DNA of 64,000 nt from Dehalococcoidia bacterium (GCA_022827095.1 JAJDTP010000005.1:434001-498000); one strand, 5' to 3'; positions 41,268 through 53,948 are shown, counted from the stretch's first letter. Made by a program: numbers and translations. The notes: a model not told the origin generated them from the letters alone.

Positions 41268-42004
41268 CAGCCGGCGCCGGGTTGGGGATGGAGATTCTCA
41301 ATGAACAGGCGGCGCGCCTGGGATTGGATCTGACGGTCGACCAGTTGACGCAATTCGCCGAGTACCAGCGGCTGCTCGCGCTGGGCAATCAGAGGGCGAA
41401 CCTCACCTCTATCACTGACTCCGAGGCGGTTCAGGTGCGCCATTTCTTCGATTCACTGACTGCTGTGAGAACGGTCAGCGATTGGCGGGACGGCCTGCGA
41501 GTGGTTGATCTGGGCTCCGGAGCTGGATTTCCGGGCGTTCCCCTGAAGATAGTTTTCCCTGGCATCCATTTGACGCTGGTGGAGTCGGTGGGTAAAAAGA
41601 CGGCGTTTCTGGAAACGCTGGTCGCGGGCCTCGGCCTGGACAACGTGAACGTGGTTACCGCGCGGGCCGAGGAGTTGGCGCGCGCCGAAGGCTATCGTGG
41701 GCAGTTTGACGTTGCTCTGGCCCGGGGAGTCGCCTCGATGTCCGTGTTGGTGGAGTATGGGCTACCGTTGTGCAAGAGGCACGGATCGTTGGTGGCGTGG
41801 AAGGGGAAGGACGGGCCGGCGGAAGCGCAGGCGGCGAATAACGCGCTTGCAGAGTTAGGTGGCAGGATGGCCGGTGCCCGTTCCCTGAACGATCTGTCGC
41901 CGCCGCTGCCGCCGGACCGTTGGCTCGTCACCGTGGAAAAGGTGCGGCGGACGCCGGGGAAGTACCCGCGCCGGGTCGGCGTGCCCGCCAAGCAGCCACT
42001 ATAG
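41264..42004 (+). CDS. rsmG: 16S rRNA (guanine527-N7)-methyltransferase RsmG
   Basis: RsmG (GidB) methylates G527 of 16S rRNA. The 246-residue protein has NLTSITDSEAVQVRHFFDSL, the SAM-binding VVDLGSGAGFPGVPLKIVFP, ESVGKKTAFLETLVAGLGL and FDVALARGVASMSVLVEYGL. It is coupled to eno by an ATGA overlap. mnmG, parA and parB, its usual neighbours, are absent. It converges with aor, overlapping its end by six bases. Confidence 0.94.
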   Translation: MTAGAGLGMEILNEQAARLGLDLTVDQLTQFAEYQRLLALGNQRANLTSITDSEAVQVRHFFDSLTAVRTVSDWRDGLRVVDLGSGAGFPGVPLKIVFPGIHLTLVESVGKKTAFLETLVAGLGLDNVNVVTARAEELARAEGYRGQFDVALARGVASMSVLVEYGLPLCKRHGSLVAWKGKDGPAEAQAANNALAELGGRMAGARSLNDLSPPLPPDRWLVTVEKVRRTPGKYPRRVGVPAKQPL

Positions 42005-43921
42005 GGCTATCACGGCCAGGTCGACGCGACCTTCGGCGCTCCATCCCCGGGCGCGATAGTAGTCGGCGATCATTGCATCCAGCTCGGCCGAGGTGAGGCC
42101 GACGCCGGCGGCGACACCATCGGCGAGAGGTTCGTTCAGGGTACGACCCGGGAGGGTATCGTCGGAGCGGCGCCAGCCCCAACGCTGGTTGTACGCTTTT
42201 TTGAGGTCGGCGATGTGGGCGGCCGCGCGGCGGAGTTCGTCGGCGTCGAAATCTTCCCAGCCGGTTACCATGCGGTAAACGGCGGCCGAGTCCTCCCAGA
42301 AATCGCTGAAAGCCCGGCGGAGGAACTTGCACCAGATGAGCGAGTCCAGCGCCGCTGCGAAATCCTCGCTGTCGGCAGCAATCTTGCCGCGTTGGTCGTC
42401 CACGGCCAGGCGGTCCACCTCCGGCGAGAAGTCGGCGTCGTAGGCCGACGTGCGATTGTGGCAGGCGCCGCGCGGGGTGGTCGCCAATCCCAGGGCCAGC
42501 GTTTTCAGGCTACGGGGTTCGTAGCCGGGCATCTCCAATCCCTTGACTTGCATGGCCCAGGATTCCGATCCACCGGCGACGCGTTCGGCGGCGAGCCGGC
42601 TGCCTTCCGCCAGCAGGTTGCCGAGAGGACCGCGGCGATGCCCAATGTCGTCCAACAGATCGATTACTGCCGCGCCGTCACCGAAGTTCAGCGAGCGGCC
42701 GGCGCTACCGTCGTCATCGGCAACCTGCGGGTTGCCCAACAGCCCTCGCTCGGCAGTTTCGATTGCCCAGGCGATGACGCCGCCGGCGGAAATGGTGTCC
42801 AGGCCAAGCTCGTCGCAGCGGCGCACGGCGCGGATCACCGCGTCGGGGTCGCCGACGCCGACCAGCGGGCCCAGGGCGAAGAGGCTCTCGTACTCCAATC
42901 GCGCGCTGACCTCGCGGGCCCCATTTGCTCCCGTGTCTTTCGTGCCCACCGTCACGATCTTTTCGCATCCGATGGTACAGTTGGCGCAATGGGCCGAACG
43001 CGTGGCGCGGGTCTGGTGCAATGCCTCGCCGCTGACCGCCTCGGCGCCCTCGAAGGTTGACTGTTGGAAATTGCGCGTGGGCAGGGTGCCCAGGCGATTG
43101 AACACCGATACGTTGGCGATGGTCCCAAGCTCGCGGTACTTGGCGGTGGCGGCGCCCAGGCTGCGTCGACTCAGATCTCGGGCGTATGCTCGCAGGGCCA
43201 TGGGGTCCGCAATGGGAGGATCGGACTCCGGGTTGCCGCGCACAGCGATGGCCTTGAGATGCTTGCTGCCCATCACCGCTCCCGGGCCGCAGCGTCCGGC
43301 CTGACGTCCGCCGTCGTTGGCGATGCTTGCAAAGCGGACCAGGTTCTCGCCGGCCGGGCCGATGCAGGCGACGCGAACGGGTCGGCGACTACCATCGTCC
43401 AGTTCCTGTTTGACCGCCGATTCGGTGTCCATGGTGGACAAGCCCATCAGGTGAGCGGCAGGTGTGATTCGCGGAACGCCGTCGGCATCGATGTGCAGCA
43501 ACGCCGCATACTGCGAGCGGCCGGTGATAACCAGCGCGTCGCCACAGGCTCGCTTCAGTTCGACCGCCAGGTGGCTGGAAGATAGGCCGTCGGCGATGAA
43601 GCCCGTCAGCGGCGAACGGGTCATCACGGCAAATTTGCTCGAGGTGGTCAGACGGGTTCCGACCAGCGGGCTGGTGACGAAGATCAGGGGATTGGCCGGT
43701 TCCAGCGCGGCGTCGAGCAGTTGCTTGCGGTTGTCGTCGGAAAGTAGATCGCCGTCGTGGTCGACCGGTGGGCTGCCGTAACGATGGAGCAGCCACGTGC
43801 CCAAACCGATGCCACCGATGGTCGAGCGGAGGGCTTGCTGGGGGATCGGGTCGCGTCGATATTCCCCGGTGGTCAGATCAACCACCGTGGCGAATCCACG
43901 GTAGCCATATAGGGCCGACAT
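41999..43921 (-). CDS. Aldehyde ferredoxin oxidoreductase (tungsten-type)
   Basis: AOR-family enzymes oxidise aldehydes to acids with a tungsten bis-pyranopterin site and a [4Fe-4S] cluster. The 640-residue protein starts at ATG 43921; the longer frame to 44077 runs over the MoaD-like gene. RSTIGGIGLGTWLLHRYG and FVTSPLVGTRLTTSSKFAVM mark the N-terminal pterin-binding domain, followed by CIGPAGENLVRFASIANDG. The cluster ligands appear as CANCTIGC (about residues 312-319) plus a distal Cys in LIWCKF (about 531). It ends the mobA-moaD-aor operon. The physiological aldehyde is unknown. Confidence 0.93.
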   Translation of the reverse strand: MSALYGYRGFATVVDLTTGEYRRDPIPQQALRSTIGGIGLGTWLLHRYGSPPVDHDGDLLSDDNRKQLLDAALEPANPLIFVTSPLVGTRLTTSSKFAVMTRSPLTGFIADGLSSSHLAVELKRACGDALVITGRSQYAALLHIDADGVPRITPAAHLMGLSTMDTESAVKQELDDGSRRPVRVACIGPAGENLVRFASIANDGGRQAGRCGPGAVMGSKHLKAIAVRGNPESDPPIADPMALRAYARDLSRRSLGAATAKYRELGTIANVSVFNRLGTLPTRNFQQSTFEGAEAVSGEALHQTRATRSAHCANCTIGCEKIVTVGTKDTGANGAREVSARLEYESLFALGPLVGVGDPDAVIRAVRRCDELGLDTISAGGVIAWAIETAERGLLGNPQVADDDGSAGRSLNFGDGAAVIDLLDDIGHRRGPLGNLLAEGSRLAAERVAGGSESWAMQVKGLEMPGYEPRSLKTLALGLATTPRGACHNRTSAYDADFSPEVDRLAVDDQRGKIAADSEDFAAALDSLIWCKFLRRAFSDFWEDSAAVYRMVTGWEDFDADELRRAAAHIADLKKAYNQRWGWRRSDDTLPGRTLNEPLADGVAAGVGLTSAELDAMIADYYRARGWSAEGRVDLAVIAL

Positions 43922-43926
43922 GGCGT

Positions 43927-44253
43927 TCACCCGCCAGCCTGATTTGATAGGAGAAGCAACGAGTCGCCCGGGGCCCAATCCAGGGGTGCTTCGATTTCGG
44001 GCGACAAAAAAGCGAGGCCGTTCCGGTTCAGAGCGTATCCGTCGGCGACGGAGATCGTCCCTCGGTCCGACAGACACAATGCGCTGCCCACCAGGTCAGG
44101 GCATTCTTGCGCCAGAGCACCCAACAACTCCGTGACCGGAGTTTGCGCGTCGACCGTCAGACAAACGCTGCTGACGCCAGCGCGAACGCGGGCCAGGCCA
44201 AACAGTTCCACGGTGACAACCACCGAAACTCCGTTCGGCGCGGCGGATTTCAT
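43927..44253 (-). CDS. MoaD/ThiS-like sulfur carrier protein
   Basis: A 108-residue ubiquitin-fold protein. VSVVVTVELFGLARVRAGVS starts the fold and the C-terminus is LLLLSNQAGG, ending in the Gly-Gly that is adenylated and thiocarboxylated to supply sulfur for molybdopterin. It overlaps mobA by four bases and ends five bases before aor. The close placement suggests a carrier used for that enzyme's cofactor. A general MoaD is the alternative. Confidence 0.85.
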   Translation of the reverse strand: MKSAAPNGVSVVVTVELFGLARVRAGVSSVCLTVDAQTPVTELLGALAQECPDLVGSALCLSDRGTISVADGYALNRNGLAFLSPEIEAPLDWAPGDSLLLLSNQAGG

Positions 44254-44870
44254 TGCGCCAGTTCCATCGCCCGGGTCAGGTCCTCCGGGCGGTTGATGTT
44301 GAAGAAGCTCAGCAGGTCAGGGTCGAAATCCCTGATTTCGCTCTCCGGCACGTAGCGGACGGCAACATCATCGAAGAAACCGGAGATCTTCAGTTGTCCG
44401 GCGCGCAGCCGACTCTCGATGGCTGGAAGACAGCGCCGCGTGTAGAGGGCATGAGTGGGTTCCGGACGGCCTTCTACCATTGGTACCACCGCATCGACGC
44501 CCTCGCGCAGGCCAGCCATGTGCGCCAGGAGAGGCGCGGACAGGAAGGGCATGTCGCAGGCGGCAACCAGCGACCAGTCGGTGGGCGCGGCTTTCAGGCC
44601 GGTGTAGATGCCGCCCAGGGAACCGCAATCGGGAAACACGTCGACCGCAGTCTGGTGGTCATCATCAAGCGGAAGAGCGGCGGCACGAGCCGGGGCTGCG
44701 ACCACGACCACCACCCCGCGGGCAGACACGCCGTCGCAAGCCCGCCGGATTACACGCCTGATTAAGGGTTCTCCGTCGAATGGCTCCACGGCCTTGTCGC
44801 GACCCAAACGCCGGCTCTGGCCGCCGGCAAGGATTACGGCGGTAATTGCTGATTTGTCGACGGAATTCAT
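44250..44870 (-). CDS. MobA-like molybdenum cofactor guanylyltransferase
   Basis: A 206-residue nucleotidyltransferase. AVILAGGQSRRLGRDKAVEP is the MobA nucleotide-binding loop, DCGSLGGIYTGLKAAPTD and SLVAACDMPFLSAPLLAHM carry the remaining core, including the metal-binding Asp. MobA attaches GMP to molybdopterin. Many tungsten AORs use a non-dinucleotide cofactor, so this MobA may serve other enzymes or act as a related transferase. It is the first gene of the mobA-moaD-aor operon. Confidence 0.9.
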   Translation of the reverse strand: MNSVDKSAITAVILAGGQSRRLGRDKAVEPFDGEPLIRRVIRRACDGVSARGVVVVVAAPARAAALPLDDDHQTAVDVFPDCGSLGGIYTGLKAAPTDWSLVAACDMPFLSAPLLAHMAGLREGVDAVVPMVEGRPEPTHALYTRRCLPAIESRLRAGQLKISGFFDDVAVRYVPESEIRDFDPDLLSFFNINRPEDLTRAMELAQ

Positions 44871-45121: not shown

Positions 45122-45937
45122 TCAGGCTCCACGCTCGTCGAGAAAATTCCGCATACGTTGCACGCACCATTCGGGGTAGATTACGTTGACCCCATGCCCC
45201 AGGCCGGGCCAAACATCCAGGCGGCTGTTGGGGATTTCGGAGGCCATGAACTCCTGCTGGTCCATGCTGGTGGTCAGGGATTCGTCCCCAGTCAGCAGCA
45301 GGGTGGGCACCGTGATGTCCTTCAGGTGCGGGCCGAAATCCAGGCTGTCAAGGTAACTGTGCAGGGCCTGACCGATCTCCGCTGGCGTGCGGTCCATTTC
45401 GGCGATGTACCAGTCCTTGAGGCCCTCATCAGCGTGGCGCATGTCCAGGCGGAAGTTGATGGTGGCCGCGCTCCACGCCCCGATGCCGCCCTGCTCCATG
45501 GTTGCAAGCCAGCTTCCGCCCGGCGTCGCACTTTCGCGGCGGGTCAGGCGACACGGCGAGTTGCACAGCACGAGCGCCCGGCACCGTTCGGGATAATCAT
45601 GGGCGAACTGCATGCCCATGATGCCGCCGAAGGATTCGCCGACGTACACGACGCGTTCCACACCGGCGTCGTCGAGGATGGCCAGCAGGTCGCCCATGAG
45701 CGTGTCCAGCGTGGGTTCGTAATGGGCCGGGTCAATGGTCGACTGGCCCATGCCTCGCAAATCGGGTCGTATCACACGGTACTCGCGGCTGAGCAGGGGC
45801 GGCCAGTTGTACCAGAATCGGCCGTTGCGGGAGAAGCCGTGCTGCAGCACGATCGCTTCCGGCGCCGACCGCCAAGGATCGGTGAAGTCGTCCAGATAGT
45901 AGTGCAGTTGGGCGTCGCCACGCTGGATAGTGGGCAC
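45122..45937 (-). CDS. Alpha/beta hydrolase
   Basis: A 271-residue hydrolase. GTG 45937 has a strong GGGAGG six bases upstream, so it is preferred over the ATG at 45976. IVLQHGFSRNGRFWYNW provides the oxyanion region, VVYVGESFGGIMGMQFA the nucleophile elbow (G-E-S-F-G), LLTGDESL the acid, and WPGLGHGVNVIYPEW the histidine. The architecture is that of small epoxide-hydrolase/esterase-like enzymes that act on varied small molecules. The substrate is not readable. It is divergent from the decarboxylase gene at 46042. Confidence 0.85.
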   Translation of the reverse strand: MPTIQRGDAQLHYYLDDFTDPWRSAPEAIVLQHGFSRNGRFWYNWPPLLSREYRVIRPDLRGMGQSTIDPAHYEPTLDTLMGDLLAILDDAGVERVVYVGESFGGIMGMQFAHDYPERCRALVLCNSPCRLTRRESATPGGSWLATMEQGGIGAWSAATINFRLDMRHADEGLKDWYIAEMDRTPAEIGQALHSYLDSLDFGPHLKDITVPTLLLTGDESLTTSMDQQEFMASEIPNSRLDVWPGLGHGVNVIYPEWCVQRMRNFLDERGA

Positions 45938-46041
45938 GGTGAGCCTCCCGGATTGCGGTTTTCGCTCGTATACCATACCCTTCCGACAGTGGCAAACCGC
46001 TGAGATCCGACGGGCCGATGGTAACTGGAGGAATCGGGTAC

Positions 46042-47172
46042 ATGACCGAAACGCTTGGAACCAACCCGTTACGACAAGCGGAAATCCAGGGACGGCTGGA
46101 CGGTTTGCTACAGGAGGTCCAGGAGGCCGGAAAACGGCAGGTTGGCTATCCGACGAACCAGGACTTCGACTATTCGGCGGTGCTGCCGTTCCTGGAGCAC
46201 TCGCTCAACAACGTGCGCGACCCCTTTCACGCCAGCAACTACTGGAGCAACACCCACGCCTTCGAACGCGAGGTGATCAACCGTTTCGCGGGCCTGCTGC
46301 GCATCGATCCCGCCGAGGCCTGGGGCTACGTCACGTCGGGCGGTACGGAAGGCAACATGTACGGCCTGTACCTGGCCCGGGAGCTCTTCCCCAACGCCAT
46401 GTTCTACTTCTCGGAGGAAACTCATTACAGCGTCCTGAAGAACGTTCGCGTGCTCAACGCCCGGCACATCATGATACGCCGGCAGGACAACGGTGAGATT
46501 GACTATGACGACCTCCGCGACATGATTCGGGTCAACCGGGGCCTGCCGGCGGTGATCATGGTCAACGTGGGCACCACCATGCGCGGGGCCGTGGACAATA
46601 TCCCGCGTATTCGGGAAATCCTGACGGACCTTGCCATCACCAGCTCGTACATCCACGCGGACGCCGCCCTCAGCGGCACGATCCTGCCCTTCGTGGATGA
46701 TCCGCAACCTTACGGATTCGACGCCGGCATTGACAGTGTGTCCGTAAGCGGCCACAAGATGATCGGCGCGCCGTTGCCCTGTGGGGTGGTCCTGACCAAG
46801 CGGCCCTACGTGGAACGGGTGGGACGCGCCATCGAGTACGTAGGGGTTGAGGACACCACGCTGTCCGGATCGCGCAGCGCGTTCGCTCCGCTGCTCCTCT
46901 GGCACGCCATGGCTCGGCTCGGCGACGCGGGATTTCGCCGGCTGGTGGCCGGCGCTCTGGAGACCGCCGAGTACGCCGTGGGCCAGTTCAACGAGCGGGG
47001 GATTCCGGCTTGGCGACACAGGAATTCGGTCACCGTGGTTTTCCCGAGGCCGGCGCCGGAAGTATTCCGCAAATGGCAGATGGCGCCCGAGGCCGAGATC
47101 ACTCACATCATTACCATGCCGCACGTGACCCACGAGATGGTAGACGAACTCGTGGATGATTGTGCCAGCTGA
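46042..47172 (+). CDS. PLP-dependent histidine decarboxylase-like enzyme
   Basis: A 376-residue group II decarboxylase closest to the PLP-type histidine decarboxylases. GYVTSGGTEGNMYGLYLARE, YFSEETHYSVLKNVRVL, HADAALSGTILPFVDD and SVSVSGHKMIGAPLPCGVV are the hallmarks, with the PLP lysine at K239. ATG 46042 has GGAGGAATC upstream, so the longer frame from 46018 was shortened. The product would be histamine or another amine; the substrate is inferred from similarity. It precedes a double-ACT protein and an HpaB monooxygenase. Confidence 0.85.
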   Translation: MTETLGTNPLRQAEIQGRLDGLLQEVQEAGKRQVGYPTNQDFDYSAVLPFLEHSLNNVRDPFHASNYWSNTHAFEREVINRFAGLLRIDPAEAWGYVTSGGTEGNMYGLYLARELFPNAMFYFSEETHYSVLKNVRVLNARHIMIRRQDNGEIDYDDLRDMIRVNRGLPAVIMVNVGTTMRGAVDNIPRIREILTDLAITSSYIHADAALSGTILPFVDDPQPYGFDAGIDSVSVSGHKMIGAPLPCGVVLTKRPYVERVGRAIEYVGVEDTTLSGSRSAFAPLLLWHAMARLGDAGFRRLVAGALETAEYAVGQFNERGIPAWRHRNSVTVVFPRPAPEVFRKWQMAPEAEITHIITMPHVTHEMVDELVDDCAS

Positions 47173-47185
47173 GGTGCGCTTCACC

Positions 47186-47596
47186 ATGAATCAACCCGGT
47201 CCAATCAACCGCATCGTCATCATGGCCGATAACGAGGTCGGAGTGATCGCCGACATCACGAGCGCCTTGGCCGCGGAACAGATCAACGTCGAATCGATCA
47301 ACACCGAGACTGCCGGGAACCGGGGCACGGTGGTGCTGACCGTGGACAATTACGACCGGGCCCTGTACGTGCTGAACGGAGCGGGGTTTAAGGCCGTAGG
47401 AGATGACGCGCTGGTCATCCGATTGCCGGATGAACCGGGCGCATTGGCCGGCGCAGCCGACCGGCTGAAGCAGGCCGGCGTCAACATACAGAGCATGCAC
47501 ATCCTCAACCGCCGGGACGGATACGCGTTGATTGCGTTGACGGTCGACGACCACCCAAGGGCCGTGGACGCCATCGGCAGCGACGTGATCGTCTGA
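47186..47596 (+). CDS. Double-ACT-domain amino-acid-binding protein
   Basis: A 136-residue protein composed of two ACT domains. ACT 1 has ADNEVGVIADITSALAAEQI with INVESINTETA, ACT 2 has LPDEPGALAGAADRLKQAG with VNIQSMHILNR. Stand-alone ACT pairs bind amino acids and regulate partner enzymes. The start is ATG 47186, with GAGGTG upstream. It lies 13 bases after the decarboxylase and may sense its substrate or control the cluster; this is an inference from position. Confidence 0.83.
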   Translation: MNQPGPINRIVIMADNEVGVIADITSALAAEQINVESINTETAGNRGTVVLTVDNYDRALYVLNGAGFKAVGDDALVIRLPDEPGALAGAADRLKQAGVNIQSMHILNRRDGYALIALTVDDHPRAVDAIGSDVIV

Positions 47597-47644
47597 GGGA
47601 AACATCCTTGGAAATGTGAACTGACCGGGAACGGAGGGACGCTC

Positions 47645-49099
47645 ATGCCGGCGCGCACCGGAGCCGAATACATCGATGGAATCAGGGAACGCGCCGCCGA
47701 GGTTTATATCGGCGGCCAGCGCGTGAAGGACGTCACGGCTCACCCCGCCTTTGCCGGCGGGCTGCGCACGGTGGCCGGTCTCCTGGATATGCAGCATGAT
47801 CCGACCGTGCGCGACGACATGGTCTACGAATCTCCGTCTACCGGGGATCCGGTTGGCCTTTCCTTCATCATGCCGCGCGACGGGGATGACCTGAAACGTC
47901 GGCGCAAGATGATGTCCAACTGGGCCCTCGCGTCTTGCGGGATGATGGGGCGCACGCCTGACTTCCTGAACGTCGCGGTGATGTCCATGGCGGCCGCGTC
48001 CGACTATTGCGGTCAGAATCGTTCCGACTTCAAGCGGAACATCGAAAACTACTACGAGTACATCCGCGAAAACGACATCGTTATGACCCACACGCTGGTC
48101 AACCTCCAGCGCAGCCGCTCCGTGGGGCAAACGCCGTTCGACGACCGAACCGAGGTGGCGCTGTCCGTGGTCAAGGAAACGGACACCGGCATCGTGGTTC
48201 GGGGCGCCAGGGTGCTGGCGACGCTCGGGCCGCTGTCCGACGAGATTGCGGTTTACCCGGCACGCACGCGCCGCGTGCCCACGGGAGAAGAGGGCAAATT
48301 CGCCTTCGGCTTTGCGATTCCCTGCGATACCGCCGGGCTCAAATTCCAATGCAGGGACACCGTGGATCTGGGTAGATCCCACTTCGATCATCCGGCCGGC
48401 AGCCGGTTCGAGGAGATGGACGCCATCGTCTTCTTCGATGACGTGCTGGTTCCATGGGAGCGGGTGTTCCTGTACAACAACGTGGCCCTGTGCAACCAGT
48501 GGGGCGAGCGCACCAACCGCAACGCGCACACCGGCCACCAGGTGGTCACCAAAAACGTGGTCAAATGCGAGTTTATGCTGGGGCTGGCGTCGCTGATGGT
48601 GGACACGCTGGGCTCAGGGGAGTTGCCACAGACCCAGCACCTAGTCGCCGAGTTGATCGAGAACCTGGAGATTACCAGGGCCTTGCTGGCGGCATCCGAG
48701 GTGCAGGCTTCAGTAGACGAATGGGGCATTTTCTGCCCGGACTACCGCCCCCTGCTGGTGGCTCGCAAGCAGATGATCACCATGTATCCCCGCATGGCGG
48801 AGATCCTGCACCTGCTGGGCTCCAGCAGCCTGATGGCCCTGCCCGCGGAGGCCGATCTCAACGGCCCGCTGGCCGAGGATATCCACCGCTACCTAGACAC
48901 GGATACCGTGACTGCGGAAGAGCGTATCCGTCTGTTCCGGCTGGCATGGGACGTTTCGTGCAGTGCGTTCGGCGGTAGGCAGACGCTCTACGAGCGATAT
49001 TTTGGCGGGGACGCGGCCCGCAACGCCGCGCTGCTGTACCAGATTTACGACCGAACCGACGCGCGCAATATGGTCGACGAATTCCTCTCGCTGGAGTAG
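47645..49099 (+). CDS. 4-hydroxyphenylacetate 3-monooxygenase (HpaB family) oxygenase
   Basis: A 484-residue flavin-dependent monooxygenase of the HpaB/PvcC family. Such enzymes use reduced FAD from a separate reductase to hydroxylate aromatic rings. TGAEYIDGIRERAAEVYIGG, DYCGQNRSDFKRNIENYYEY, THTLVNLQRSRSV, RGARVLATLGPLSDEIAVYP and FFDDVLVPWERVFLYNN match the family along its length. CGGAGGG precedes the ATG. No HpaC flavin reductase lies nearby. Its start codon and the next gene's GTG are directly coupled at 49099. The aromatic or amine substrate is unknown. Confidence 0.9.
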   Translation: MPARTGAEYIDGIRERAAEVYIGGQRVKDVTAHPAFAGGLRTVAGLLDMQHDPTVRDDMVYESPSTGDPVGLSFIMPRDGDDLKRRRKMMSNWALASCGMMGRTPDFLNVAVMSMAAASDYCGQNRSDFKRNIENYYEYIRENDIVMTHTLVNLQRSRSVGQTPFDDRTEVALSVVKETDTGIVVRGARVLATLGPLSDEIAVYPARTRRVPTGEEGKFAFGFAIPCDTAGLKFQCRDTVDLGRSHFDHPAGSRFEEMDAIVFFDDVLVPWERVFLYNNVALCNQWGERTNRNAHTGHQVVTKNVVKCEFMLGLASLMVDTLGSGELPQTQHLVAELIENLEITRALLAASEVQASVDEWGIFCPDYRPLLVARKQMITMYPRMAEILHLLGSSSLMALPAEADLNGPLAEDIHRYLDTDTVTAEERIRLFRLAWDVSCSAFGGRQTLYERYFGGDAARNAALLYQIYDRTDARNMVDEFLSLE

Positions 49100-49869
49100 T
49101 GCCCGTGATCACCGTTGCCGAGATCAACATCGCCCCGGTCAAGTCCATGGCCCTGGTTCCTTTGGAACAGGCGACGCTGGACCTGGGCGGCATCCAAGAG
49201 GACCGCCGCTTCTACTTGGTGAACCAGCAGGGACGCCTATTGTCCCGCCGGCAGGTGGGGAAGCTGGCACAGCTGGTGGCGTCGTGGGATCCGGAGTCCG
49301 AGCGGCTCCGCATCGCCTTTCCCGACGGTACGGTGCTGGACGAGCGGCCCGAGCTGGACCAGCCGGTTTGGACGATAATCTGGGGGCGGCGGGTGCGAGC
49401 GCGCCCATTGATGGGAGACTGGATGCGGGCCATCAGTGAATTCTCCGGCCAGCCGGCCGTCCTGATGATGTCGGAACTTCCCTGCCAGGTTTTTGACGAG
49501 TTTCCCGTTTCGGTCCTGTCCCGGGCTTCTGTGGAACGGCTATCGGCGCAGATGGGCATGGCCGAGGACGAGTGCCTGGCCACGGACCGGTTCCGCCCGA
49601 CCCTGCTGCTTGATGGCTGCGAGGAGCACGAGGAAGACGGGTGGATGAACCGGACCATATCTATCGGAGATGCCGTGGTGCGCGTCCTGGCCCCGGACCC
49701 GCGCTGCGCGATCATCGACCAGGACCCAATAACCGGCGAAACGGATACCGAGGCGGTGCGGTCGATCCTGGGCTACCGGCCGAACGCGCTGGCGGCGTAC
49801 TTCGGCGTGTACGGCATTGTGGAGAAACCCGGCCTGGTGCGGGTGGGTGATAGAGTGGAAGTGGGCTGA
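49099..49869 (+). CDS. MOSC domain protein (MOCO sulfurase C-terminal-like)
   Basis: A 256-residue protein with an N-terminal MOSC beta-barrel (ITVAEINIAPVKSMALVPLE, DRRFYLVNQQGRLLSRRQ) and a C-terminal MOSC domain (DRFRPTLLLDGCEEHEEDGW, then VLAPDPRCAIIDQDPITGET with the conserved Cys). MOSC proteins handle sulfur or molybdenum-cofactor ligands, as in the mARC N-oxide reductases. The GTG start overlaps the HpaB stop by one base, so it is translated with it. An iron-sulfur domain is absent. Confidence 0.87.
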   Translation: MPVITVAEINIAPVKSMALVPLEQATLDLGGIQEDRRFYLVNQQGRLLSRRQVGKLAQLVASWDPESERLRIAFPDGTVLDERPELDQPVWTIIWGRRVRARPLMGDWMRAISEFSGQPAVLMMSELPCQVFDEFPVSVLSRASVERLSAQMGMAEDECLATDRFRPTLLLDGCEEHEEDGWMNRTISIGDAVVRVLAPDPRCAIIDQDPITGETDTEAVRSILGYRPNALAAYFGVYGIVEKPGLVRVGDRVEVG

Positions 49870-49911: not shown

Positions 49912-50226
49912 ATGTCTGACGAGATATTGATGACGGAATCAGTTCAGGTCATTCACAGCGATGAGACTGGCACGTCCGATTACATGATCAATCTGACCTT
50001 GAACTATTACCAGGAAGAGGGGCAGTGGGTTGGTTTCTGCGAAGAACTGGGCACCTCCGCTTTCGCAAGCGAATTGGAACAGACGCAAGCAGAGCTTCGG
50101 GAGGCCGTCGAGTTGCAGTTGAACGGGGTGGAAGGGATTACGGACGTTCGGGACTATCTTGCCGACAATCAGGTGGTCATTCAGCCGGTCAAGCCCTCAC
50201 GACAAGCCGGTTTCGCGACCGTATGA
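49912..50226 (+). CDS. HicB-like antitoxin
   Basis: A 104-residue protein from ATG 49912, with GGGAGG eight bases upstream; the longer frame to 49870 was rejected. YMINLTLNYYQEEGQWVGFC and EELGTSAFASELEQTQAELR form the HicB partial RNase-H-like fold ('e.....v.cpelg...g.t.eea...l'). The DNA-binding C-terminal domain of some HicBs is not apparent. It overlaps the HicA-like gene by four bases (ATGA), in the antitoxin-first order. Confidence 0.85.
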   Translation: MSDEILMTESVQVIHSDETGTSDYMINLTLNYYQEEGQWVGFCEELGTSAFASELEQTQAELREAVELQLNGVEGITDVRDYLADNQVVIQPVKPSRQAGFATV

Positions 50227-50447
50227 ATATCTCCGGGCGCTATCTCCTGCGCCTACTCGAACTTGACGGTTGGGTTAGAGATCGCCGCTCTAACCACGGA
50301 ATTTTGATCTACAAAGAATTTCCCGGAGAAGGGCGACCAAGGTTCACGGTCATCCCAGATGAGTCAACGCCGTTGCCCGATACCATGTTGGGACGTATTC
50401 TCAGCGTGAAGCAAACCAGCATTGGCCGGACTGTTTACGAAGGCTGA
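50223..50447 (+). CDS. HicA-like mRNA interferase toxin
   Basis: A 74-residue protein with the HicA dsRBD-like fold. ISGRYLLRLLELDGWVRDRR leads to SNHGILIYKE, where H25 occupies the position of the HicA catalytic histidine, and RPRFTVIPDESTPLPDTMLG is the final strand with the 'iP.H' counterpart reading IPDE. RILSVKQTSIGR is the last helix. HicA cleaves mRNA. It starts inside the end of the HicB gene. GC content is clearly lower than in the flanking genes. Confidence 0.85.
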   Translation: MNISGRYLLRLLELDGWVRDRRSNHGILIYKEFPGEGRPRFTVIPDESTPLPDTMLGRILSVKQTSIGRTVYEG

Positions 50448-51913: not shown

Positions 51914-53878
51914 TCAGTTGTCTGCGGCTACGAGGGCATCAGGAGAACCGAGTGCCGCTCCGAACACCTCGGATAGATGGGCGCTGGCGGCATCGACGGC
52001 CTGGCGACCCTTATCGATGACGTGAGGCAACCCGAAGAATCCGTGGATTACGCCATCGTACCGGATGAGCGTGGTTTCGACGCCGGCATCTTCCAGGGCG
52101 CTGGCGAAGGCCTCGCCCTCGTCGCGGAGCGGATCAAACTCTGCCGTAATCACCAGGGCGGGCGGCAGGTCGGCCGACAGCCGCGCCCTTCCGGGCGACG
52201 CGAAGATGTTGTAACCGGACAGGTCGGAGTTGTCGATGTAGTGATCCCAGAACCAGCGCATGCTCGCGGTTTCAAGGAACATGCCCTGTCCGTTGACGTT
52301 GTAGGAGCGCGTATCGTAGGCGTATTCGGTGGCCGGGTAGACCAGCAACTGGAACGCCAAGGGTTGCGGGAAGTCGTCCTGGGCCAGGCACACTGCCGCG
52401 GCGAGGTTGCCGCCGGCGCTATCGCCACCGACTGCGATAAGGTCGGCACGGCTGCCCAGGGCGTCGGCGTTAGCCATGGCCCACATAGTGGCGGTGAGAC
52501 AGTCCTCGAACGGTGTGGGGAACTTGTACTCGGGTGCAAGTCGGTAGTCCACGGAGACGACGACGCAGTTCCCGCCCACGCAAAGCTCGCGGGCGGTGGC
52601 ATCGGCTGTCTCAACGTTGCCGATCACCCAGCCCCCGCCGTGGTACCAAACCAACGTGCCCCACGGGCCTTCGGTCGCCGGCGTGTAGATCCGGATAGGT
52701 ACCTCACCCGGCTCCTTGCCGTGCTCGTTCCTGATGATCCGGTCCTCGACATTGCCGACCGGCGGGCCTTCGGGTCGGGGTCGGCTGTTCATGATCTCCC
52801 GGCACTCGTCGACGCTCATTTCCTGGAAGGGCTTGATACCCATGGAGTCGAACAGCTCGAGGATGTGGGCGGCCTGGGGATCGAGCAGCTTGCGCATGGC
52901 CGCGGGGTCGCCTTCGTGGCGGCGGTGGTATTCCTCCGTCATGTCATCCACGGCGCCGCGCAGGAACCTGCAAGCGTCGTCCATCGCATCGCGCGCGGTG
53001 TCCATGACGCTCGCCATGCTGAAGAAGCCGTGGATCATCCCATCGTAGCGGTTGCTTTCCGCCGGAACGCCCAGCTCGTTGAGCAGGCGTCCGTAGGCCT
53101 CGCCTTCGTCGCATAGGGGGTCGTATTCCGCCGTGATGATCAGCGCCGGGGCCAACTCTTCGATGGCGTCGAAATCGGCGGATAACTGTAGCGGAGCGGC
53201 CAGCGGGTCGGCAGCCTGGGAAGGGTCAGCGAGGTACTGGTCCCAATACCAGATCATGACTTCTCGGTCGAGGTTGTACCCGACACCATTGTCGATATAC
53301 GAACCGGTGTCAAACTTGACGTCGGTGACCGGGTAGACCAGGAGCTGCTGGCTGACGCGGAAATCGCCGGTCTCGGCGGCCTTGATGGCCACTGCCGCCG
53401 CTAGGTTGCCGCCGGCGCTGTCGCCGCCCACCGCCACGACGCCGGGCACGCCGTCCAATTCCGCGGCGTGGTCGCTGGCCCAGATGGTGGCGTAGTAGCA
53501 GTCGTCAAAGGGTTCGGGGAACTTGGCTTCAGGGGACAGACGGTAGTCCACGGAAACCACCACGCAGCGGGAGCCGGCGCACAGATGGCGTGCCGTGCCG
53601 TCCGCCGAGTCCAGATTGCCCACGACCCAGCCGCCACCGTGATACCAAGCCAGGATGGGGAACGGACCGTCGCCCTCGGGCGTGTAGATGCGCACCGGCA
53701 CGTCGCCCGCCGGTCCCGGGACGCTACGGTCCTGGACCTTGCCGACCTCGGGTCCGGGCGCTCGGGGCCGCTTGGCCGCGTTGGCCCGTGCTTCCGTCGG
53801 AGTGACGGTGTTGGCTGGCGGCAAACCCAGGGCTCGGGTTGCGTCGATTACCTCTTGCGCTTGCGGGTGCAGTGGCAT
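51914..53878 (-). CDS. Double alpha/beta hydrolase (HSL family), two fused esterase domains
   Basis: A 654-residue protein made of two hormone-sensitive-lipase-type hydrolases in tandem. Both halves have their own oxyanion HGGGWV, nucleophile GDSAGGN (S154 and S487), acid in TAEYDPL and TAEFDPLRDEG, and histidine in IHGFF. Thus both triads look intact, about 333 residues apart, linked by a 40-residue helix (DDACRFLRGAVDDMTEEYHR onward). HSL enzymes hydrolyse short esters; single-domain forms of 300-340 residues are the rule. The start ATG 53878 follows GGAGG; upstream extension to 53923 was rejected. Confidence 0.9.
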   Translation of the reverse strand: MPLHPQAQEVIDATRALGLPPANTVTPTEARANAAKRPRAPGPEVGKVQDRSVPGPAGDVPVRIYTPEGDGPFPILAWYHGGGWVVGNLDSADGTARHLCAGSRCVVVSVDYRLSPEAKFPEPFDDCYYATIWASDHAAELDGVPGVVAVGGDSAGGNLAAAVAIKAAETGDFRVSQQLLVYPVTDVKFDTGSYIDNGVGYNLDREVMIWYWDQYLADPSQAADPLAAPLQLSADFDAIEELAPALIITAEYDPLCDEGEAYGRLLNELGVPAESNRYDGMIHGFFSMASVMDTARDAMDDACRFLRGAVDDMTEEYHRRHEGDPAAMRKLLDPQAAHILELFDSMGIKPFQEMSVDECREIMNSRPRPEGPPVGNVEDRIIRNEHGKEPGEVPIRIYTPATEGPWGTLVWYHGGGWVIGNVETADATARELCVGGNCVVVSVDYRLAPEYKFPTPFEDCLTATMWAMANADALGSRADLIAVGGDSAGGNLAAAVCLAQDDFPQPLAFQLLVYPATEYAYDTRSYNVNGQGMFLETASMRWFWDHYIDNSDLSGYNIFASPGRARLSADLPPALVITAEFDPLRDEGEAFASALEDAGVETTLIRYDGVIHGFFGLPHVIDKGRQAVDAASAHLSEVFGAALGSPDALVAADN

Positions 53879-53948
53879 TCGGGGCCTCCGGTTCTCGCGT
53901 AGTGTTTGAACGTGGGAAATCAAGGCTATCGCCAGCCCATCCCACCTG

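Follow-up and report, generated by a model that had tools for sequence, protein, structure and literature searches.

A PLP-dependent decarboxylase linked to a double-ACT protein lies beside an HpaB-MOSC gene pair in a Dehalococcoidia genome

Allosteric tuning by ACT subunits is familiar from other amino acid enzymes than the decarboxylases considered here. A literature search for ACT together with histidine decarboxylase found no paper, and the titles and abstracts obtained for ACT with amino acid decarboxylase, or for regulatory subunit with pyridoxal, mentioned no such ACT partner. The closest described decarboxylases are the histidine decarboxylase (HDC) of Photobacterium phosphoreum (PpHDC; 7ERU/7ERV) and the plant enzymes AtSerDC, CsAlaDC, MtAAS and CaAAS; in the plant enzymes specificity is set by Tyr111 of AtSerDC and Phe106 of CsAlaDC (PMC11407765). 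Plant proteins formerly named HDC turned out to be serine decarboxylases (PMC4177580), a chickpea enzyme with a YPT motif takes Phe, Met, Leu and Trp (PMC4177580, PMC11407765), and loss of the catalytic Tyr in plant relatives abolishes or changes the reaction (PMC11407765). For the plant serine and alanine decarboxylases and the SDC-like aldehyde synthases, no ACT partner is described in the papers cited here. HpaB enzymes accept tyrosine-like phenols (PMC10816480), the residues of the phenol-binding site of Thermus thermophilus HpaB (2YYG-2YYM) have been assigned roles (PMC10537072), and in MOSC proteins the MOSC cysteine has been described as Mo ligand (PMC10637980).

The window, i.e. the whole stretch of 64,000 nucleotides that we analysed, belongs to a genome of 3.79 Mb and 98% completeness (G000), and the named relatives were SAR202, Dehalococcoidia and other Chloroflexota MAGs. 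All four ORFs of the run were found on the plus strand at the positions and with the domains given by a sequence-only reading: a PRK02769-like group II PLP decarboxylase of 376 aa (46042-47172; Pfam, NCBIfam and active-site residues), a double-ACT protein of 136 aa which we propose as its regulatory partner (47186-47596; Pfam, linkage and AlphaFold), the 484-aa oxygenase component of an HpaB-1 type flavin-dependent aromatic hydroxylase (47645-49099; Pfam and NCBIfam), and a mARC/YcbX-like MOSC_N + MOSC protein without ferredoxin domain (49105-49869; Pfam). A divergent PcaD-like alpha/beta hydrolase gene (45122-45976, minus strand) lies 65 bp upstream of the decarboxylase. The gap between decarboxylase and ACT is 13 bp, between ACT and HpaB 48 bp and between HpaB and MOSC about 0-5 bp, and HpaB has a ribosome-binding site of its own, AACGGAGG. 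In alignments the MOSC homologues begin where the window has GTG 49105 and not at 49099, which makes the former the more likely start. This leaves a gap of 5 bp, hence the claimed translational joining of MOSC to HpaB stands as a likely coupling, but the overlap is not certain. Scans for promoters and terminators gave nothing above chance level.

Further genes lie around the run. On the minus strand at 42002-44870, near the MOSC-bearing run, we find an aldehyde ferredoxin oxidoreductase and a MobA-like NTP transferase together with a small ORF that has a GG end and looks MoaD-like, with no Pfam match. One of the run's flanking contexts is, by these genes, a molybdenum/tungsten cofactor neighbourhood. 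A pair of small ORFs 3' of MOSC (49912-50226 and 50205-50447, plus strand) looks like HicB-HicA; for the partner ORF of G004 (L086:6572-6817) the HicA match stays below the Pfam cut-off. Farther out, a 669-aa ORF (51917-53923, minus strand) consists of two fused alpha/beta hydrolase (Abhydrolase_3) domains.

The double-ACT protein has two ACT domains by Pfam, AlphaFold (two ACT folds, mean pLDDT 87) and Foldseek. It shares the tandem domains with BT0572 (2F06; fold match E 4.8e-11) and with the regulatory subunits of aspartokinase, which are among the nearest folds, but differs from both in being dedicated to the decarboxylase by gene linkage. The ACT gene lies directly 3' of the decarboxylase in 30 of 30 loci from relatives. 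When 80 named loci were fetched by the decarboxylase alone, ACT being disregarded, the ACT pair followed directly in 78, usually within 0-60 bp (with a partial or split ACT match in L162 and L111), and in the two others the contig ends 130 and 180 bp after the decarboxylase. These loci span Chloroflexota, Nitrospinota, Verrucomicrobiota and Alpha- and Gammaproteobacteria. The reverse search, by ACT alone, gave nine strong matches from other Chloroflexota, and all nine follow a decarboxylase. Stop and start codons of the two genes overlap or abut in many loci, and in G011 decarboxylase and double ACT are fused by a short linker into one ORF of 531 aa (L056:7265-8857). Such constant linkage to a single catalytic gene is as expected of an ACT regulatory subunit; decarboxylase and double ACT are one unit, and in pairing the two the earlier interpretation is supported. 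From the linkage and the fusion, and by analogy with other ACT subunits, we infer that the ACT pair binds both an amino acid and the decarboxylase, and regulates the latter. The double-ACT protein could also act on something encoded far away.

Near four related plasmid decarboxylases (Vibrio, Klebsiella, Streptomyces), a set that includes the YPE-type HDCs of Vibrio and Klebsiella, there is no ACT gene; the window decarboxylase differs in this from related HDCs borne on plasmids. A tree including classical HDCs left the base without resolution, and we therefore do not claim monophyly for the ACT-linked group.

In 71 of the 80 loci neither HpaB nor MOSC lies beside the decarboxylase-ACT pair; the other nine are from the window's genus. 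A constant third partner was considered and rejected, as the neighbours outside the genus differ: they include a LigB-like dioxygenase (five loci), an NHL/beta-propeller protein, UbiD, an arginase-family protein, peptidases, a methyltransferase and genes without Pfam match. Being so varied, none of them identifies the substrate of the decarboxylase. Just 3' of decarboxylase-ACT, a LigB-like ring-cleavage dioxygenase was seen at L048, L057, L058, L123, L140, L143, L147 and L154; in the list of LigB-bearing Chloroflexota loci some entries are the same genome fetched twice. In an alphaproteobacterial MAG, an arginase-family gene occupies the position directly 3' of the pair (L170:7600-8526).

Ten of the 14 genomes of the genus have the four genes together (G000, G001, G002, G005, G006, G008, G009, G010, G012 and G013), in G012 with an ORF of ~250 aa inserted between HpaB and MOSC. 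The run was seen nowhere outside the genus, so the synteny sought in relatives holds for congeners only. The alpha/beta hydrolase stays with the decarboxylase or with HpaB within the genus, and the five-gene block that includes it has at least two different flanking contexts. Given this recurrence in 10 genomes and in at least two contexts, the gene order is not due to chance, and a block so kept may reflect a functional connection of its genes in this genus.

None of the 14 congeners lacks HpaB-MOSC. It is present in G003, a single contig with 99% completeness, in which a genome-wide search gave no decarboxylase match and no ACT match. In G004 and G011 the alpha/beta hydrolase, HpaB, MOSC and the outer flanks are kept and decarboxylase-ACT is missing at the locus, only about 180-200 bp separating the hydrolase from HpaB; the sequence that borders the missing part in G004 still matches the window on either side. 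Both genomes have a decarboxylase-ACT unit elsewhere, and G007 has a truncated decarboxylase with ACT at one locus and the HpaB...MOSC genes at another. Second decarboxylase-ACT copies without adjoining HpaB or MOSC were also seen at L002 (G000:C4), L042, L044 and L045. The window is sister to G013 in the HpaB tree and to G001 in the decarboxylase tree, where G010 and G006 group with stand-alone copies. Between the window and G013 the ACT proteins are 95% identical and the decarboxylases 82%. Judged by these sequences, the decarboxylase in the HpaB-adjacent slot appears to have been exchanged on its own.

The HpaB protein has HpaB_N and HpaB domains and scores 540 bits against TIGR02309 HpaB-1 (cut-off 480), the equivalog shared with T. 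thermophilus HpaB. Within the phenol-binding triad Arg103 and His149 are kept and invariant, corresponding to Arg100 and His142 of the Thermus enzyme, and Phe107 replaces Tyr104. Ser197/Thr198 are replaced as well, by Ala/Arg, and these differences leave the substrate uncertain. Orthologues of ~70% identity in sister genera lie among genes for Rieske oxygenases, LigB dioxygenases, SDR and TPP enzymes. The retained Arg and His, together with these ring-cleavage gene clusters, favour a phenolic substrate, and the simplest reading is that HpaB acts on phenolic compounds. The N-oxide route that had been proposed is thereby less favoured, though conceivable. Unlike in T. thermophilus there is no adjoining HpaC, and the run holds no HpaC or other flavin reductase, as had been noted; the free reductase that was then sought has three candidates in Flavin_Reduct (PF01613) genes elsewhere in the genome, which also encodes several HpaB paralogues.

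The MOSC protein is of the mARC/YcbX type: it has MOSC_N and MOSC domains by Pfam and a PVKS motif, Cys203 is invariant among its homologues, and it aligns to human mARC1 with the MOSC cysteine included. This cysteine is likely the Mo ligand, as in the described MOSC proteins. At 256 aa and without ferredoxin domain it differs from those mARC/YcbX proteins that carry one. Homologues of 40-50% identity occur elsewhere in genomes outside the genus, and no HpaB-MOSC pairing was seen outside the genus.

The earlier description of the decarboxylase as histidine-decarboxylase-like holds as far as the family is concerned. PRK02769 (Pyridoxal_deC in Pfam) is matched with 467 bits at a cut-off of 305, the best PDB match of the AlphaFold model (pLDDT 89) is the histidine decarboxylase 7erv (TM 0.91, about 45% identity), with which it has every PLP residue and the catalytic Tyr in common, and all residues expected of a group II PLP decarboxylase are present, i.e. 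the PLP Lys239, the stacking His128, Asp207 to N1 and the catalytic-loop Tyr266, which aligns with Tyr341 of AtSerDC. On these grounds the protein might indeed form histamine from histidine, in keeping with its NCBIfam equivalog name. The specificity position speaks against it: this is Thr38 in a YPT motif, and V, T, C or A in 107 of 107 sequences compared (some loci counted twice), never the Glu of PpHDC and of the plasmid HDCs of Vibrio echinoideorum and Klebsiella. AtSerDC has Tyr and CsAlaDC Phe at this position. The plant enzymes share family, C-terminal half and YPX specificity motif with our protein (AtSerDC at about 41% identity), YPT is common to it and the chickpea enzyme, and it was among plant proteins that the name HDC proved wrong before (PMC4177580). 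We hold histamine formation to be improbable. Thr38 and the substrates of the chickpea YPT enzyme point to a likely substrate other than histidine, namely an aromatic or bulky hydrophobic amino acid, and the label histidine decarboxylase is probably wrong on the genomes that carry decarboxylase-ACT. In the cluster decarboxylases of G002 (L041), G009 (L039) and G013 (L037), as well as in the G011 fusion, the catalytic Tyr is replaced by Leu. Since plant relatives deprived of this Tyr react differently or not at all, the Leu-type copies would be either dead or altered, and by this analogy those of the three clusters are possibly aldehyde synthases or dead enzymes.

The explanation that we consider likely is that the run comprises two functional units in tandem, decarboxylase-ACT and HpaB-MOSC. 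In the first, a double-ACT partner dedicated to a PLP-dependent amino acid decarboxylase would bind an amino acid and tune the enzyme allosterically. The second would be a two-component flavin-dependent phenol hydroxylase, receiving reduced flavin from a reductase encoded elsewhere, alongside a Moco-binding mARC-like MOSC protein, and would work without the first. Alternatively, all four proteins might form one pathway specific to the genus: an aromatic amino acid, e.g. tyrosine, would be decarboxylated to the amine or converted to the aldehyde, HpaB would hydroxylate the ring, MOSC would handle an N-oxygenated by-product and ACT would sense the amino acid. The conservation of the five-gene block in two contexts, a decarboxylase site suited to bulky amino acids and the uptake of tyrosine-like phenols by HpaB enzymes (PMC10816480) would all fit, but HpaB is 94-95% identical to that of the window in G004 and G011, where it has no neighbouring decarboxylase, is kept in G003, and stays intact where the decarboxylase is frame-broken or truncated (G005, G007) or has lost its catalytic Tyr (G002, G009, G013). 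Hence we doubt this pathway strongly. HpaB-MOSC is retained without decarboxylase-ACT, and decarboxylase-ACT outside the genus never adjoins HpaB or MOSC; the single pathway requiring all four genes, which the sequence-only reading had put forward, is therefore not supported.

The two units might also be chance neighbours, decarboxylase-ACT having moved beside HpaB-MOSC in the ancestor of the genus and persisted there for a short time without shared function. The discordant trees with copies apparently swapped in the slot, the loss in four congeners and the separate ribosome-binding site of HpaB agree with this, but in several congeners the block has outlived the replacement of both its flanks, and we find mere adjacency rather unlikely. 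Beyond the two tandem units that we prefer, one may speculate, with considerable doubt, that an ACT-controlled subfamily of group II PLP decarboxylases extends across phyla, with the Leu-type copies being oxygen-using aldehyde synthases that feed the adjoining hydroxylase. Many carriers of decarboxylase-ACT are MAGs from marine hosts.

The decarboxylase-ACT unit is the more general and the less expected part of the cluster, and the idea of a four-gene pathway should not be treated as a described pathway. The doubtful label of histidine decarboxylase bears on statements as to which organisms produce histamine. The G011 fusion and the Tyr-to-Leu variants are ready test proteins. If the ACT pair does control the decarboxylase, this would be a form of allosteric control that the titles and abstracts in our literature searches did not report for group II PLP decarboxylases, and one that recurs in uncultured marine and freshwater bacteria.
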